A stretch of 38,998 nucleotides of DNA from a bacterium (GTDB lineage Bacteria > Vulcanimicrobiota > Xenobia > Xenobiales > JADMJV01): NCBI GenBank assembly GCA_030149525.1, contig JASBRJ010000376.1:1-38998 (forward strand), read 5' to 3'. Positions 13,124 through 20,638 of the stretch are shown here, in pieces. The notes under the pieces were generated by a model, which searched no databases, was not told the origin of the DNA, and worked only from the letters and a program-made list of their open reading frames with translations. The position numbers were made by a program, and so were the translations under genes. Position 1 is the first letter of the stretch, and every line of letters starts with the position of its first letter.

Positions 13124-13351
13124 TCAAATTGGTGTCGAGGTGATTAGCTTTTTCTGCTGGAGCAGTTTGATTTCTTTAGGTCTGCTTTCTTTGGGGACAT
13201 CGAAGAACAGGCCCTGTACTTGCTGAGAGCCACGCGCTTTTATCACGATGTCGAAGTGGCCCTTGCAGGCGTGTTCTTTGCCCTCGGAATCGACAACAGT
13301 AAACTGGTACGCCTGAATCTTGACCTCTTCACTCCCGAGATTCCAGCGCAG
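13124..13351 (-). CDS. Small ORF downstream of the pseudokinase, no canonical start
   Basis: A minus-strand frame of up to 75 codons, ending in TGA at 13124-13126, directly abutting the stop of the plus-strand AbiEii-like gene. Its product reads like a real protein: EVKIQAYQFTVVDSEGKEH, then CKGHFDIVIKARG, GLFFDVPKESRPKEIKLLQQKKL. There is no ATG, GTG or TTG before the conserved-looking part. The possible starts are CTG at 13351 (overlapping the end of the pseudokinase gene in another frame), or translation by frameshift from the upstream gene. I do not recognise a family. The window between 13132 and 13328 is otherwise without a gene. Confidence 0.42.
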   Translation of the reverse strand: MRWNLGSEEVKIQAYQFTVVDSEGKEHACKGHFDIVIKARGSQQVQGLFFDVPKESRPKEIKLLQQKKLITSTPI

Positions 13352-14966
13352 GGGCTACCAACAAAGTGCCGGCTCGCCGCGCCGAACTCAGCTTCTGAGA
13401 GCGCACCAGATCACAAGCGTTGGCAAGTAGAGTTTCCAGCTCCGCAGGACCGGTCAATTTGTAGGGGTCGGGGGCAGCGAGCACGACGCGATTGGCAAAC
13501 TTATTTTGAACGTCCTGGTCTTTCACCAGTGGTAGGAGCTGCAAGTAGTCCTTTGGGCGGTCCCATCTGAGCGGTTGGGTTAGCAAGAGGTCTTTGATTT
13601 TATCCAGTAAGAGCTCTCGCGCCAGTTCTCCCAGACGTTCTTTCAGTCTATTGTCGGAGATACCGCGATAGGAGATGTCGAGAGGCCAGGGTCCATCCAA
13701 CAGAAGCTGTGTTGGTGAGAGAGTGTGGAATCCCCCTTGATAAGTCAGGCCGTCGACCCTCAGGAAAAAACCTGGCTCCTGACTGCAGTACGACCCGAAG
13801 ATTCGGAATCCCTCACGCTCCCCCAACAACTCCAGTTCGTGCTGGAGATTCAGAGGATGACCATTCCAGCTGACTCCGGCCTCACTCAATTGAACCCGTC
13901 GAAGTAACTCGGAGGGAAACGTCTGCGGAAGTTCTCCGTACATAGAGAGAGTGACGCCTTTACTCCGTCCTGGGGTCATGCTTGGCGGATTCAGGCCTTC
14001 GAAGTCTGCCTGCCATCGACCACTCGTTAGGGTTACTCGTGCTCCGCGGGAGAGGACTCCCACGATGCCTCGACCCAGATGGTGAAGGGGATTTTCGGCA
14101 GACTGCACGGCTGCCAAAAAGAGCCCTTCGATCTGTTGTTTCTCAAGTTCCGGAAGGTCGTAGTGAACTCGCAGACCGGACTTGCTTGTTCGGAAAGTTA
14201 TAGCGGAGCTTTTCAAGGCATGACCTGCCGCCACCAGTGGTAACAGATAGTCGTGAGGTCGGGCAAATTGAAATTGGGCGAGCTTCTCAAGGGTCTTCTC
14301 GGGGTTGAGAGTGAAGCGACCGTCCTTCTCATCCTTTTGACCCTCTCGGCCGGCCTGGTCCAAGAATCTGCCTATTTCCGAGGCCGCTTCCTGGGCTGCC
14401 GGAGCGGGTTTTTCCCGCAGCCGGGATAGCATCTCGAAGATGTCATCGGGTCGATCGTCGGGTGATTTGCTCATCAGTGCTTCCACCAGGTCTACCAGGT
14501 TACGGGGAAGATCCGGCCGGTTTTCCATTAGCGGAGTGGGGTTCTCATGAACAATGCGAAAAAGAGTTTTCATAGCATCGTTGTCGCTCCTGTAGGGAGC
14601 TTGTCCGGTCAGAAGATGGTATGCCAGCGACGCTGTACCGTAGAGATCGGACTTGGGGTTGAAAGAGGCCCCCATAAAGACCTCGGGGGCCATATACTGA
14701 ATGCCCGGCTCATAGGAGCCGCTACGGACCTGGGCGGCGCCGGCAAGCTGGTTGATAGAGCCCAGACCAACCTCGGTAAGTATCCACCGGTCCCCACTGA
14801 GTATGAGCTTGTCAGTGGTCCAATTGCGATACAAGAACCCCTGAGAATGAAGATGTTCCAGGGCGTCTAGAGTCTGTTCCAGGAACGAGGTAACGAAATC
14901 CACGGGTTGAGGACCTTGCTTCAGCCAAACTGCCAGGGGTCGGCCTTCAAGCCATGGCCTTGCCAT
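13329..14966 (-). CDS. Pseudokinase C-lobe fused to GHKL-like domain (3' part of a TAG-split gene)
   Basis: A 545-codon frame, directly in phase with the ORF upstream (14967-15332) and separated from it only by one TAG. Residues 1-185 are the C-lobe of a Ser/Thr-kinase fold (DALEHLHSQGFLYRNWTTDKLIL; YMAPEVF; DLYGTASLAYHLLTGQAPY). Catalytic residues are gone: HRD is YRN, the Asn of the catalytic loop is Lys, and DFG is EVG. Residues 230-545 align with the proteins at 3008-4555 and 34044-35426: GRFTLNPEKTLEKLAQFQF, LGRGIVGVLSRGARVTL, GVTLSMYG, LDISYRGISDN. ATP phosphotransfer is not expected; a binding or scaffold role is inference. Alone, this piece would start at ATG 14966, inside the kinase fold. 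Confidence 0.8.
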   Translation of the reverse strand: MARPWLEGRPLAVWLKQGPQPVDFVTSFLEQTLDALEHLHSQGFLYRNWTTDKLILSGDRWILTEVGLGSINQLAGAAQVRSGSYEPGIQYMAPEVFMGASFNPKSDLYGTASLAYHLLTGQAPYRSDNDAMKTLFRIVHENPTPLMENRPDLPRNLVDLVEALMSKSPDDRPDDIFEMLSRLREKPAPAAQEAASEIGRFLDQAGREGQKDEKDGRFTLNPEKTLEKLAQFQFARPHDYLLPLVAAGHALKSSAITFRTSKSGLRVHYDLPELEKQQIEGLFLAAVQSAENPLHHLGRGIVGVLSRGARVTLTSGRWQADFEGLNPPSMTPGRSKGVTLSMYGELPQTFPSELLRRVQLSEAGVSWNGHPLNLQHELELLGEREGFRIFGSYCSQEPGFFLRVDGLTYQGGFHTLSPTQLLLDGPWPLDISYRGISDNRLKERLGELARELLLDKIKDLLLTQPLRWDRPKDYLQLLPLVKDQDVQNKFANRVVLAAPDPYKLTGPAELETLLANACDLVRSQKLSSARRAGTLLVAPALESRE

Positions 14967-15332
14967 CTACATAGGCTCACAGTCGAATCGCCCATCCACA
15001 AACGGTGCCAGATTGGGATGATGAACGCTCCTGCCAATGTGGAGTTCACGCTGAAGTAGCGAAGGCTCGGCGTGGAAGAAGATTCTGATCAGAAACTTCT
15101 CGTTGTTTTGGTCGATAGCCTCATAATTTTCGTTGTCGATGCGCTTAACCAGACGGTAGGCCTCTCCAACCACCTCTTGTATCTCAGGAAATGGGCTGGG
15201 TTCTCTCTTGGGCTCTTTCTTGCGGCCAAACAAACGCCGAAACACCGTGGAATTTTTGACGACCCCGAATCTTGTCCTGGCAGCACTCCCATCAAAACTT
15301 TGCCGATAAGTTAACATGCAGTCAGACACCAT
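14967..15332 (-). CDS. Pseudokinase N-lobe (5' part of a TAG-split gene)
   Basis: A 121-codon frame ending in TAG at 14967-14969, followed in the same frame by the kinase C-lobe. Residues 55-121 form an N-lobe: AYRLVKRIDNENYEAIDQNNEKFLIRIFF, where the VAIK lysine is Arg83, LLQRELHIGRSVHHPNLAP for helix C and the next strand, and FDCEPM at the hinge, where the stop falls. Replacing TAG with a sense codon restores a normal hinge (EPM-x-MARPWLEGRPL). The start is uncertain: ATG 15332, ATG 15317, or GTG 15245, which gives a clean N-terminus FRRLFGRKKEPKREP and leaves room for divergent promoters. This is either a recently broken gene, a sequencing error, or read-through. Confidence 0.7.
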   Translation of the reverse strand: MVSDCMLTYRQSFDGSAARTRFGVVKNSTVFRRLFGRKKEPKREPSPFPEIQEVVGEAYRLVKRIDNENYEAIDQNNEKFLIRIFFHAEPSLLQRELHIGRSVHHPNLAPFVDGRFDCEPM

Positions 15333-15352: not shown

Positions 15353-16327
15353 TTGGAACCGGAATCGCATATCAAGAGAGTCAGGCTTTTTCACACCAAC
15401 GATTTTCATCGTCGGTTGAAGCCGCTGAGCGATGGAACAGGCGGCGCCGACCGCATGGTGGGCAAGATTCGTGAGTTGGAAGAGGCCAACCCCGGCTCCA
15501 TCACCGTCAACGTTGGCGATGTGGCCGGCGACAACACGGCCCACGGACCAGATCATTTCAAGCCGATTCCTGAGATCTTTAACCAGGCCGATATCGATAT
15601 TCTGGCCCTGGGTAACCATGAGTTCGAAGACTCCGATAACGATTATCAGAATCTTCAAGAAGGCCTAATAAAACCGTTCAAGGGTGATGTTCTGGTGGCC
15701 AATGTGGCTCATAGCGACGGTCGTCCTATCGAAGGCACCAAGCCCTACACCATCAAGCAACTTCAAGATCATTCCATCGCCTTCATCGGCGTGGTCACAA
15801 GAGATCTGGCTTCAGCTGTCTTTCCCGCTGCAGGCGCCGGTCTGAGCACCATGCCCATCGAGGAGACTCTGCGAGATCTCATCCCCAAGGTGAAAGCCGA
15901 GGGCGCAGAAGCCGTTGTTGTCCTGGGCCATGACAACCTCACCAACATGCAGAAGATGGCCAAAGAGGTGGACGGAGTCGATCTGGTTCTGGCAGCTCAC
16001 GACCATCGTTCAACGGAGAAGCCCATCGAGGTGGTCAGAGACGACGGGAGCAAGGCTTGGGTCGCCGAAGCCGACGCTTACGGGCGCAGTGTGGGAGAGG
16101 TGGATCTCCTGTTTCAAGACGGTCGACTCCGCGGGGTAGAGGGCAAACTCCACCAGGTGGACGAAAGCTCTCCCAGCGACCCTCTTATCAAAAAGATTAC
16201 CGACGATCATAAGAACGGACCTCGCGTTCGTATGCCCGAAAAAAAGCAGAAAATGGAAACTGTGGCAAGCTTCGAGGAATTAGCCAAAATCTTCGCCCAG
16301 CAGCAAGAAAGTAAGGACCAGCAGTGA
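15353..16327 (+). CDS. Metallophosphoesterase, 5'-nucleotidase-like
   Basis: A 324-residue protein matching the calcineurin-like domain of the 5'-nucleotidase/UshA family: LFHTNDFHRRL (Asp17, His19), NVGDVAGDN (Asp56), LGNHEFE (Asn-His), VVLGHDNL and AAHDHRST supply the two-metal site. It lacks the usual signal peptide and the C-terminal nucleotidase domain, so it is a short, cytoplasmic variant; residues 275-324 are a charged helical tail (KKQKMETVASFEELAKIFAQQQ). The only start in frame is TTG 15353. Its end overlaps the GTG of the RNase II-like gene by 4 bases, so both are translated together, suggesting a combined role in RNA or nucleotide turnover. Substrate is unknown. Confidence 0.85.
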   Translation: MEPESHIKRVRLFHTNDFHRRLKPLSDGTGGADRMVGKIRELEEANPGSITVNVGDVAGDNTAHGPDHFKPIPEIFNQADIDILALGNHEFEDSDNDYQNLQEGLIKPFKGDVLVANVAHSDGRPIEGTKPYTIKQLQDHSIAFIGVVTRDLASAVFPAAGAGLSTMPIEETLRDLIPKVKAEGAEAVVVLGHDNLTNMQKMAKEVDGVDLVLAAHDHRSTEKPIEVVRDDGSKAWVAEADAYGRSVGEVDLLFQDGRLRGVEGKLHQVDESSPSDPLIKKITDDHKNGPRVRMPEKKQKMETVASFEELAKIFAQQQESKDQQ

Positions 16328-18093
16328 GCAATCCGATCTCAAACCGAATGACGCCGCCTCAAATAACGAGTCAGCAAGCCCCTAAAAAGGCTCGCTTCAA
16401 AGAGAAGGGGCCCCAAGAGAAGTTTGTCAATCTGGCCGACACGGTGGGCGGTTCTTGGCATGATCAGCTGGCCTCCTTGAAGCCCACGTTGCAGGCCCGT
16501 GAAGAGCTTGGTATCAGCGGTGCGGTTATCACCAAAGAGAACGGCGAGATGATCGAAAAGATTCTCTCCGACAAGACTCCCACCGAAGACCTGGGAGTTA
16601 TCGCCGATCGTCAAATGGCTGAGAACGGCATGGTTCCAGATTTCACGAGTCCGGTGAAGGAAGCGCTGGCCGCTGTTCCCGCCCAACTCAAACCGGATCA
16701 CGCATCGGTGGTCGATTTGCGACATCTGGCCATGGTTTCCGTAGACAATGGTGATCTGAATCCTATCACTGGTAAGCTCGCCAACGCCTCCAAGGACATC
16801 GATCAGGTCGAATATGCCGAGCGGATGCCCAACGGCAACATCAAGATGCTGGTGGGAATTGCCGATGTGGACTCAGCCGTGAAGAAGGGCGATCCCATCG
16901 ACAACTCCGCCATGCGCCAGGGAGCGACGGTATACACCGACGAGAAGATTTTTCCCATGCTTCCCCGGGAATTGAGTGAAGACAAAACCTCTCTAAACGG
17001 TGGTGAAGACCGACTGGCCGTGATCAAAGAGTTTCAAGTAACCCCCGACGGTACCATTGTTGAACCCAAGGTTTACCGAGCCTACGTCCACAACAACGCT
17101 CAGATGGCCTACGATTCCGTCAATGAATTTCTCACTGACGGAGACGGCCCTCGACCGCCCCAACTGCAAGATCCGAAACTGGCGGAGCAGATCCAACTGC
17201 AAGACGAGGCTGCCCAGCGACTCAGGGTTTTCTTTCACGGCAAGGGGTCGTTGGATATCGAGAGCTCCGAAGCCAAGAATGTCAAACAAGACGGCAAGAT
17301 TGTCGACATGACCAAAGAGGTTCAGACTCGAGCCAAAGATAAGGTCAAGTACAACATGATGGCGGCCAACATCAGCAGTATGCGGGTTTTGGACGAGGCC
17401 GGTTTGCCCACTCTTCGCCGCATCGTGAAGACTCCTGAAAAATGGGATCAGATTGTCGACCTGGCCAAAAAATACGAGTACAAATTGCCCTCCGATCCCA
17501 ACGCCAAGGCGCTGAACGCCTTCCTCGAGAGTCGCAAAGAGGCCAACCCGGAGGCCCATGAAGCGCTTTCTGCCAAAGTGGTCCTCCTGGTGGGTCGCGG
17601 GGAATACGTTGTGGCCAAGCCCGATGAGCCGATTGAAGGTCACTTTGCCCTGGCCGCCCCCGACTACGGTCACACCACGGCACCCAATCGACGCGGCCCT
17701 GACCTCGTCAATCAGCGTATCGAGAAAGCGCACGCTCAAGGGGAAGATTGCCCTTACAGCATCGAAGAGTTGGAGCAGCTCGCCGAGCACTTCAACAAGC
17801 AAGAGTCGGCCATTAAAAATGTGGAGCGTCGAGTGCACCGAAGCGCCACCGCAAAGTTGGTGAAGCCCATGATCGGCAGAACCTTCGACGGGCGATTCCA
17901 TAAAGAGTTGACCAACGGCTCCCTGGTGAGAGTCAAGGAGCCTTTCGTGACCGGCATGATCAAACGCAAGCTCGAGATGGAAGCGGGAGATCCTATCCGA
18001 GTGAAGCTCACCGGTGTGGATGTGGAAAAAGGCCATGTCGACTTTGAGAAAGCCTCCGATCAAGAAGTGGAAGGTTTTCTGCTAAAACATTAA
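16324..18093 (+). CDS. RNB-domain (RNase II/R family) ribonuclease
   Basis: A 589-residue protein with an RNB catalytic domain from about 125 to 450: GIADVDSAVKKGDPIDNSAMRQGATVYT, FPMLPRELSEDKTSLNGGEDRLAV and NMMAANISSMRVL match the RNase II/R core. Of the four catalytic acidic positions, Asp144 (or 141), Asp158 and Asp160 can be assigned in VDNGD and SKDIDQ, but the fourth is Gln161 instead of Asp. YGHTTAPNRRGPDLVNQR (near 460) matches the conserved S-P-I-R-R-Y-x-D-L-x-x-H block with loss of the His. No classic cold-shock domains precede it; the C-terminal 70 residues could be an S1-like OB fold. Start GTG overlaps the upstream phosphoesterase. It may be a divergent, possibly slow, 3'-5' exoribonuclease or an RNA binder. 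Confidence 0.82.
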   Translation: MSNPISNRMTPPQITSQQAPKKARFKEKGPQEKFVNLADTVGGSWHDQLASLKPTLQAREELGISGAVITKENGEMIEKILSDKTPTEDLGVIADRQMAENGMVPDFTSPVKEALAAVPAQLKPDHASVVDLRHLAMVSVDNGDLNPITGKLANASKDIDQVEYAERMPNGNIKMLVGIADVDSAVKKGDPIDNSAMRQGATVYTDEKIFPMLPRELSEDKTSLNGGEDRLAVIKEFQVTPDGTIVEPKVYRAYVHNNAQMAYDSVNEFLTDGDGPRPPQLQDPKLAEQIQLQDEAAQRLRVFFHGKGSLDIESSEAKNVKQDGKIVDMTKEVQTRAKDKVKYNMMAANISSMRVLDEAGLPTLRRIVKTPEKWDQIVDLAKKYEYKLPSDPNAKALNAFLESRKEANPEAHEALSAKVVLLVGRGEYVVAKPDEPIEGHFALAAPDYGHTTAPNRRGPDLVNQRIEKAHAQGEDCPYSIEELEQLAEHFNKQESAIKNVERRVHRSATAKLVKPMIGRTFDGRFHKELTNGSLVRVKEPFVTGMIKRKLEMEAGDPIRVKLTGVDVEKGHVDFEKASDQEVEGFLLKH

Positions 18094-19424: not shown

Positions 19425-20558
19425 CTACTCCGTAACGATGGACCAAGGTCTCACGGTTACGCCGGGGGGGATCTCCTCGGTGGAGAGAACCGCCGTGTGC
19501 GCAAACGAGAGTTTCGGTCTCAAGCTCGGAGAAACCACCAGGACGGCATTCAGCCCTCTCTCCATCATTTGAGTCAAAGCCGACTCAATTTCGTCGCAGA
19601 GGGTGGGAGTAACTTCTTCGGCCTCGAGCACAACAGCCACGATCTCTTGATCACAGTTAGTGTATTCGGAACAGATAATCTCGCCCAGAGCCCTTCGCAC
19701 GTTTTCGAGGAGTCCGGGAAGAGAATCGTCCATCGGGGCTTTGTCGGCGATGTTCTCAAGAATGAGGGCGAGATCTCGGATCGAGACGCTCTCTTTCAAA
19801 AGAGCTTGAAGGATGGCTCGAAGCTTGGCCCTTGATATCAGGTGAGGAATCACCTCATCGACCAGGTGAGGGCGCTCTAAGGCCGACAGCAGTTCTTCAA
19901 CCTCGTCAATTCCCAGAAGCCGATAAGCCTCGTTTCGGATGCTATGAGTGAGGTGAGTCGCGATCACACTCACGCCGTCAAAATACATAAGCCCATCCAG
20001 GGGCGGTCTCGTCTCCACCCACTTTGCCGTGAGTCCGTAGGTGGGGTCGACGGTGAGGTGCCCCGGTAAGCTTTCTAGTTGTTCTTCAGGACCCACGGCC
20101 AGGAATCTTCCCATTTCCACCAGGCCGCTCGCCAAGGGAAGTTCCCGCACGAGAATTCTATAACGGTTCGTTTCCAGGCCAAGATTGTCTCGAAATCTCA
20201 CCCCTGGTGTGACCACACCTAGCTCTTTGGCAAGGAATCGACGAATGGAGCCCACCCGCTCCATCAACTTCTCGGTCAGTGGCTTTAAATCGGCAGCGAG
20301 TTCCACAGTGAGAAGATCGAAAGTGAGATAGTCTTTGGTGTCTGCCTCGGCGACCGGCGATCTCAGGAGTTTCTCCGGTTCCAACTGGAGCGCTTGAGTG
20401 ACTCGCCTGAGAGAGTCTTTTGAGGCGGAGCCGGCTTCCATGCGGCGTAGAGTCCGGACACCAAGGCCACACCTTTCGGACAGTTCTTCCTGTGTCATTG
20501 CCCTGGCTTCTCGTTCTTTGCGAAGCCTTTCCCCATTGACCCTTATACCTTTTCCCAT
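19425..20558 (-). CDS. XRE-type HTH protein fused to FlhA/SctV cytoplasmic domain
   Basis: A 377-residue protein with two parts that do not normally occur together. Residues 7-62 are a Cro/C1-type helix-turn-helix (LRKEREARAMTQEELSERCGLGVRTLRRMEAG). Residues 75-377 match the cytoplasmic domain of the type III export gate FlhA/SctV (FHIPEP family): VRFRDNLGLETNRYRILVREL, DPTYGLTAKWV, GVSVIATHLTHSIRNEAYRLL, PHLVDEVIP, LKESVSIRDLALILENIAD, NVRRALGEII. The FlhA membrane region is absent. In flagella and injectisomes this domain docks export chaperones and substrates, so the protein may sense such ligands and regulate DNA; that is inference. ATG 20558 is chosen; a TTG at 20591 would add eleven unlikely residues. 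No other secretion gene is in the window. Confidence 0.85.
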   Translation of the reverse strand: MGKGIRVNGERLRKEREARAMTQEELSERCGLGVRTLRRMEAGSASKDSLRRVTQALQLEPEKLLRSPVAEADTKDYLTFDLLTVELAADLKPLTEKLMERVGSIRRFLAKELGVVTPGVRFRDNLGLETNRYRILVRELPLASGLVEMGRFLAVGPEEQLESLPGHLTVDPTYGLTAKWVETRPPLDGLMYFDGVSVIATHLTHSIRNEAYRLLGIDEVEELLSALERPHLVDEVIPHLISRAKLRAILQALLKESVSIRDLALILENIADKAPMDDSLPGLLENVRRALGEIICSEYTNCDQEIVAVVLEAEEVTPTLCDEIESALTQMMERGLNAVLVVSPSLRPKLSFAHTAVLSTEEIPPGVTVRPWSIVTE

Positions 20559-20638
20559 GGGTTGATGATACCATCGAGAAGCTGCTGTCAAAAGGACAGT
20601 TAGCGGCCGCTTACAGGCCGTGGCGAAAGCCTCAACTA

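Follow-up and report, generated by a model that had tools for sequence, protein, structure and literature searches.

What would a DNA-binding protein do with the cytoplasmic domain of a type III export gate? The question is raised by a gene on the minus strand of the 38,998-nucleotide stretch analyzed here (the window), at positions 19425..20558, whose 377 codons run without an internal stop from an ATG at 20558 to a stop codon ending at 19425. The start is aligned in four orthologues and fits the promoter spacing described below. An earlier note had read this single frame as an XRE helix-turn-helix (HTH) joined to an FHIPEP cytoplasmic domain, and Pfam, NCBIfam, PDB and structure-model comparisons bear this out. 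The XRE/Cro-C1 HTH occupies residues 12-64 (20367..20525) and matches Pfam HTH_3 with 34.4 bits (2e-8), above the curated cut-off of 23 bits; PADLOC matches to the fusion are essentially confined to this part. The FlhA-type cytoplasmic domain follows at residues about 71-377 (19428..20348). The FHIPEP search that had been proposed as a check on it gives a clear match in two stretches (residues 63-313, 192.9 bits, 1.3e-56), covering positions 321-574 of the 657-position profile. The NCBIfam FlhA model matches at 4e-63, yet far under its full-length cut-off, and crystal-structure chains of the FlhA cytoplasmic domain (FlhA-C) match the sequence at 1.6e-38. When an AlphaFold model of moderate quality, built without templates (pLDDT 72, pTM 0.46), is compared by Foldseek, FlhA-C structures come out on top (E 4e-25, 325 columns).

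We aligned the effector part with Salmonella FlhA and mapped onto it the domain boundaries that we take to apply there. The linker starts near residue 71, D1 covers residues about 82-149 and 195-214, D2 about 150-194, D3 about 215-292 and a shortened D4 about 293-377. The description of this part as a nearly full-length cytoplasmic domain thus holds for D1-D3 and fails for D4, which has 85 residues in the fusion versus 113 in the same genome's own FlhA (∼28 shorter). D4 forms the FliJ cleft in FlhA. Trp354 of the FlhA linker is not retained. The membrane region (profile positions 1-320) is absent, the match beginning at position 321, and the most hydrophobic 19-residue stretch of the fusion reaches only 1.24 on the Kyte-Doolittle scale.

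The fusion recurs. In a survey of 149 genomes of the phylum, a complete copy was found in five of the six sampled genomes of the window's family: the window genome itself (G000), G001, G003, G004 and G005. The sixth member (G002) lacks it, and no complete copy occurs outside the family among the 149. Complete fusions score 538-671 bits, while the next match, an ordinary FlhA, scores 240 bits. Because an ORF with the same two domains is present in four relatives, an assembly join or a frameshift between two genes is excluded; the survey of other genomes that the note had proposed thereby settles this point. The copies are 36-78% identical to one another. Residues 1-66 of the window protein share 55-59% identity with the sister genus, and the FlhA part 34-41%. 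Within the sister genus dN/dS is 0.15-0.31, approximate figures in that dS exceeds 1 in most pairs, with the HTH under stronger constraint than the FlhA part; judged by these ratios, the fusion is under purifying selection. The locus is syntenic in G001, G003 and G005, and neither G004 nor the window shares a neighboring gene with these three at the fusion locus. Directly downstream of the fusion, two sister-genus loci encode short proteins (L067:8669-9241, minus strand; L070:10998-11438, plus strand) with a polar N-terminus and a glycine-rich hydrophobic middle; they occupy the same place and are dissimilar in sequence.

The region ahead of the gene suggests what the HTH might do. Upstream of all five copies lies an array with GGCC repeated at an 11-bp period, that is, one helical turn. 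In the window this putative operator (GGCC-N7-GGCC-N7-GTCC-N7-AGCA, 37 bp, 20583..20619, minus strand) has its elements at -61, -50, -39 and -28. G001, G004 and G005 carry four GGCC copies at -62, -51, -40 and -29, and G003 carries three plus GACC. The window array matches the sister genus's four-copy array at 13/16 positions, the best of 38,961 window positions; a score at this level is met once in the 39 kb, shuffles reach it at that place with a frequency of about 2e-5, and periods other than 11 bp give no comparable score. No 8-mer from upstream of the window gene recurs in the corresponding region of at least two other orthologues. Six genomes (about 48 Mb) together contain three perfect four-copy arrays, each directly upstream of a fusion gene, and we infer from this restriction to places where the gene occurs that the fusion protein itself binds the array. 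One-mismatch arrays elsewhere in the six genomes are as frequent as a reversed-pattern control, and a regulon search with three exact copies found no more matches elsewhere than that control, so that no further target can be named; an array confined to the gene's own promoter makes no wider regulon visible.

Between array and gene lies an extended -10 box, TGG-TATCAT (20565..20573, minus strand), 6 nt before the ATG, and the pattern TGn-TAnnnT stands at exactly this distance in 5/5 orthologues. No Shine-Dalgarno-like sequence precedes the ATG in any of the five. The position of the box, together with this lack, indicates that the fusion mRNA is probably leaderless and made from an extended -10 promoter; the five agreeing promoters are related by descent and do not count as five independent observations. 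The earlier suggestion of a soluble, DNA-binding version of the gate domain is therefore supported, by the missing membrane part and by the conserved promoter and operator-like array upstream of every copy. Very probably, to judge from these upstream regions, the fusion protein binds DNA at its own promoter and regulates transcription there.

We then asked where the FlhA domain came from. The window genome has two full-length FlhA genes, on C27 and C177. The C177 gene is grouped with genes for flagellin, FliS, FliF, FliG, FlhB, FliR and MotA/MotB-like proteins, and the C27 gene with genes for FliK, a rod/hook protein, FliM, FliP, FliR and FlhB-like proteins; these names are read from the sequences, with profile matches for FHIPEP, flagellin and FliS only. 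C27-type FlhA is widespread in the phylum, including genomes in which flagellin or FliS is not detectable, as is the flagellar-type export system to which it belongs (L035 on C27, L134, L138). A tree was built from 75 FlhA-C domains; its long branches call for caution about the inner branching order. In it the fusions are monophyletic (support 94) and, together with the other soluble paralogues, nest inside the clade of C27-type FlhA, separate from the C177 type (96). By this tree, the FlhA domain of the fusion is a descendant of the FlhA of the second, flagellin-less export system.

A link to the flagellin flagellum was considered and rejected, because co-occurrence with flagellin and FliS fails and the tree places the fusion elsewhere: the fusion is absent from G002, which has both flagellin and FliS, and present in G001 and G005, where neither was detected. 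A Pfam scan of 31 window ORFs finds no export gene beside the fusion (flhB, fliR and fliP included), and for these ORFs the statement that the window holds no other type III gene stands. Two other window genes are worth recording. A protein-kinase-like ORF at 13329-15332 lacks the first 91 Pfam profile positions and follows directly on a 121-aa ORF that lies in a different frame, so that the two may possibly be a split gene. The gene at 16324-18093 encodes an exonuclease of the RNase II/R type, whose RNB domain is preceded by a polar N-terminal extension some 150 residues long.

Can the effector domain still do what a gate domain does? In Salmonella, complexes of FliS, FliT and FlgN dock in the D1-D2 cleft of FlhA, with Asp456, Phe459 and Thr490 taking part (PMC8166844, PMC5932034), and a tyrosine of FliS and of FliT bonds Asp456 in this cleft (PMC5932034; PMC8166844). 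The corresponding stretch of the window fusion (19956..20048, minus strand) retains D171 (equivalent to Asp456), Y174 (Phe459) and T201 (Thr490). At 10/12 listed cleft positions (among them P157, D171, P172, Y174, G175, D194, S197, A200 and T201) the fusion equals its own genome's C27-type FlhA, versus identity of about 47% over the domain. From these residues, docking of an export chaperone by the window species' fusion is credible. The sister genus differs. Its fusions have D/W/Q-N or S/W/H at the equivalents of Asp456, Phe459 and Thr490, and R, W and Q/N/H at the positions of 442, 459 and 490, while the C27-type FlhA of the same genomes is unchanged. Because the cleft is kept in the window and remodeled in the sister genus, the alignment indicates that the docking site is not a conserved property of the family.

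The best explanation of the whole, which we hold tentatively, is that the fusion is an XRE-type one-component regulator whose soluble effector domain, derived from an export gate, reads an export client. The FlhA cytoplasmic domain assembles into rings. Several fusion subunits, joined through this ring-forming domain, would occupy the array from a single face of the helix, and the bound oligomer would govern the promoter of the fusion gene itself, whose mRNA is probably leaderless. Three sister species have a short gene 4-31 nt downstream of the fusion, and there this gene would come under the same control. A client, most likely a chaperone-substrate complex, would enter the D1-D2 cleft, the oligomer would change, and transcription would be switched. 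We lean slightly toward the view that the FlhA domain does sense a client and is more than a means of oligomerization. That this client is a chaperone-substrate complex of export is a guess that we make with some reserve.

The proposal that the availability of export substrates is coupled to transcription is accordingly left partly standing. Descent from an FlhA that belongs to a real export system in the same genome and the kept cleft of the window copy speak for it; the altered cleft of the sister genus and the failure to track flagellin or FliS speak against it, as do the truncated D4, the lost Trp354 and the lack of an adjoining export gene. On these sequence comparisons, export sensing by the fusion is plausible.

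How else might such a protein be explained? The FlhA domain might be an assembly scaffold and nothing more, aligning at least four HTH domains on the phased array, with any signal unrelated to export. The spacing of the sites by one helical turn fits this, as do the changed cleft in the sister genus and the seven other soluble FlhA-C proteins of the same genome, which have other N-terminal parts and so suggest a reusable module. However, the window copy keeps its chaperone cleft far better than the remaining domain, and a 300-residue D1-D4 domain with intact D2 is large for oligomerization alone; we consider pure scaffolding unlikely, though it is the main rival to the candidate signal that we rank first, and ourselves still regard as doubtful, namely a client of the flagellin-less export system. 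Rapid divergence of the effector part, together with the remodeling of the cleft between genera, would also suit a domain whose ligand is a peptide or small molecule with no relation to export, as is the case in many one-component regulators. Retention of the cleft in the window species counts against this, as does the fact that we know of no FlhA-C with small-molecule binding as its function, and we judge this explanation improbable.

Confinement of the array to the gene's own promoter and the retained cleft of the window copy lend some weight to a further idea: that the protein is mainly a decoy, a soluble FlhA-C that competes for export chaperones or FliJ and so tunes export, while the HTH steadies its own level. 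Such a decoy would hardly have the HTH as its most constrained part or an altered cleft in the sister genus, and we find it more improbable still. That the gene is a chance fusion, a pseudogene or an assembly join without function is refuted, to a degree that leaves it almost no probability, by five intact orthologues, dN/dS well below 1 and the conserved promoter with its operator-like array. Returning to the regulator that reads an export client, its fullest form would be a sensor that is a duplicate of the export gate, competes with the gate for chaperone-substrate complexes and reports the traffic to DNA, a design that would have had two or more origins, one of them in this phylum and another in bacteria of the Lachnospiraceae type; we offer this form as speculation.

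The soluble FlhA-C proteins mentioned above (C144, C238, C30, C89, C83, C231 and C28; L028-L034) differ in their N-terminal parts, several lack D2, and C144-type relatives occur across the phylum. In the sister genus, L073, L074 and L075 show tandem pairs of FlhA-C proteins whose N-termini resemble secretion signal peptides, so that these domains are perhaps exported. The lineage of G150 (L010, L099) has, besides full-length FlhA, a soluble protein of ∼490 aa with a full FlhA-C in 36/37 genomes, and some of its genomes also have a D1+D3 version of 207-218 aa. This radiation of soluble FlhA-C proteins raises the question of what the domain does outside the gate.

A search of other genomes' contigs returned mostly bare XRE proteins, the informative matches being L010 and L011, and a plasmid search had flhA or unannotated FlhA-like proteins among the matches listed. 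L011 comes from a metagenome-assembled genome titled Agathobacter sp., and from this title alone we take the label Lachnospiraceae-type. In it and in ten more of 98 sampled surrounding genomes, an XRE HTH precedes FlhA D1 and D3, and both D2 and D4 are missing. A profile built from five of these fusions gives 84 bits for their own FlhA, 77 for the C27 FlhA and 48 for the window fusion, and on these scores the two kinds of fusion most likely arose separately. Separate origins would mean that the pairing of a DNA-binding domain with an FlhA module has been kept more than once. The Lachnospiraceae-type fusion occurs with FlhA in 11/11 genomes, but FlhA is present in 87/98 of the sampled relatives anyway, and the co-occurrence is therefore uninformative. 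In nearly all of the ten upstream regions of L103-L112, a GTTGTTTTAC motif or near variant stands ahead of the -10 region, and this motif is possibly the operator of these XRE+FlhA genes.

The open-access literature searched contained nothing on FHIPEP with a helix-turn-helix or with a regulator function. The claim that no regulator of this design has been described thus holds for that literature, and the design is not confined to this genome, since the architecture recurs in the window's family and in Lachnospiraceae-type genomes. The regulator design is real and, going by the open-access literature searched, apparently undescribed.

It is instructive to compare it with known systems. The fusion resembles the FlhA/SctV gate (FHIPEP, PF00771) in having D1-D3 and a portion of D4, with the dimple residues retained in the window copy; it differs from the gate in lacking the membrane region, in its short D4, in the attached HTH and in its place outside an export operon. 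With XRE (Cro/C1) one-component regulators it shares an N-terminal HTH, a C-terminal effector and an operator, here putative, at its own promoter. Their usual operator has one or two dyads, whereas the fusion has an array of four phased sites, and its effector comes from a type III export gate. The Lachnospiraceae-type proteins (L011, L103-L112) likewise place an XRE HTH before FlhA D1 and D3; unlike the window fusion they lack D2 and D4, and hence a D1-D2 cleft, and their similarity to true FlhA exceeds that to the window fusion. In FliT-FlhDC, FlgM-FliA and ExsCDE, a free chaperone or a secreted anti-factor reports export status to transcription, and none of these systems uses a gate-derived domain as the fusion does. 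In the two-component systems FlgSR, FlrBC and FleSR, a kinase detects assembly of the MS ring and rotor (PMC7064773). These systems tie transcription to the state of the flagellum's export apparatus, as the fusion putatively would, but their sensor is a kinase, whereas that of the fusion would be a gate paralogue on the DNA-binding protein itself. What is known of the coupling of expression to type III export comes mainly from two-component systems, free chaperones and secreted anti-factors; if the reading proposed here is true, a regulator with a copy of the docking domain of the gate would sense export directly and offer a ready-made readout of its status.
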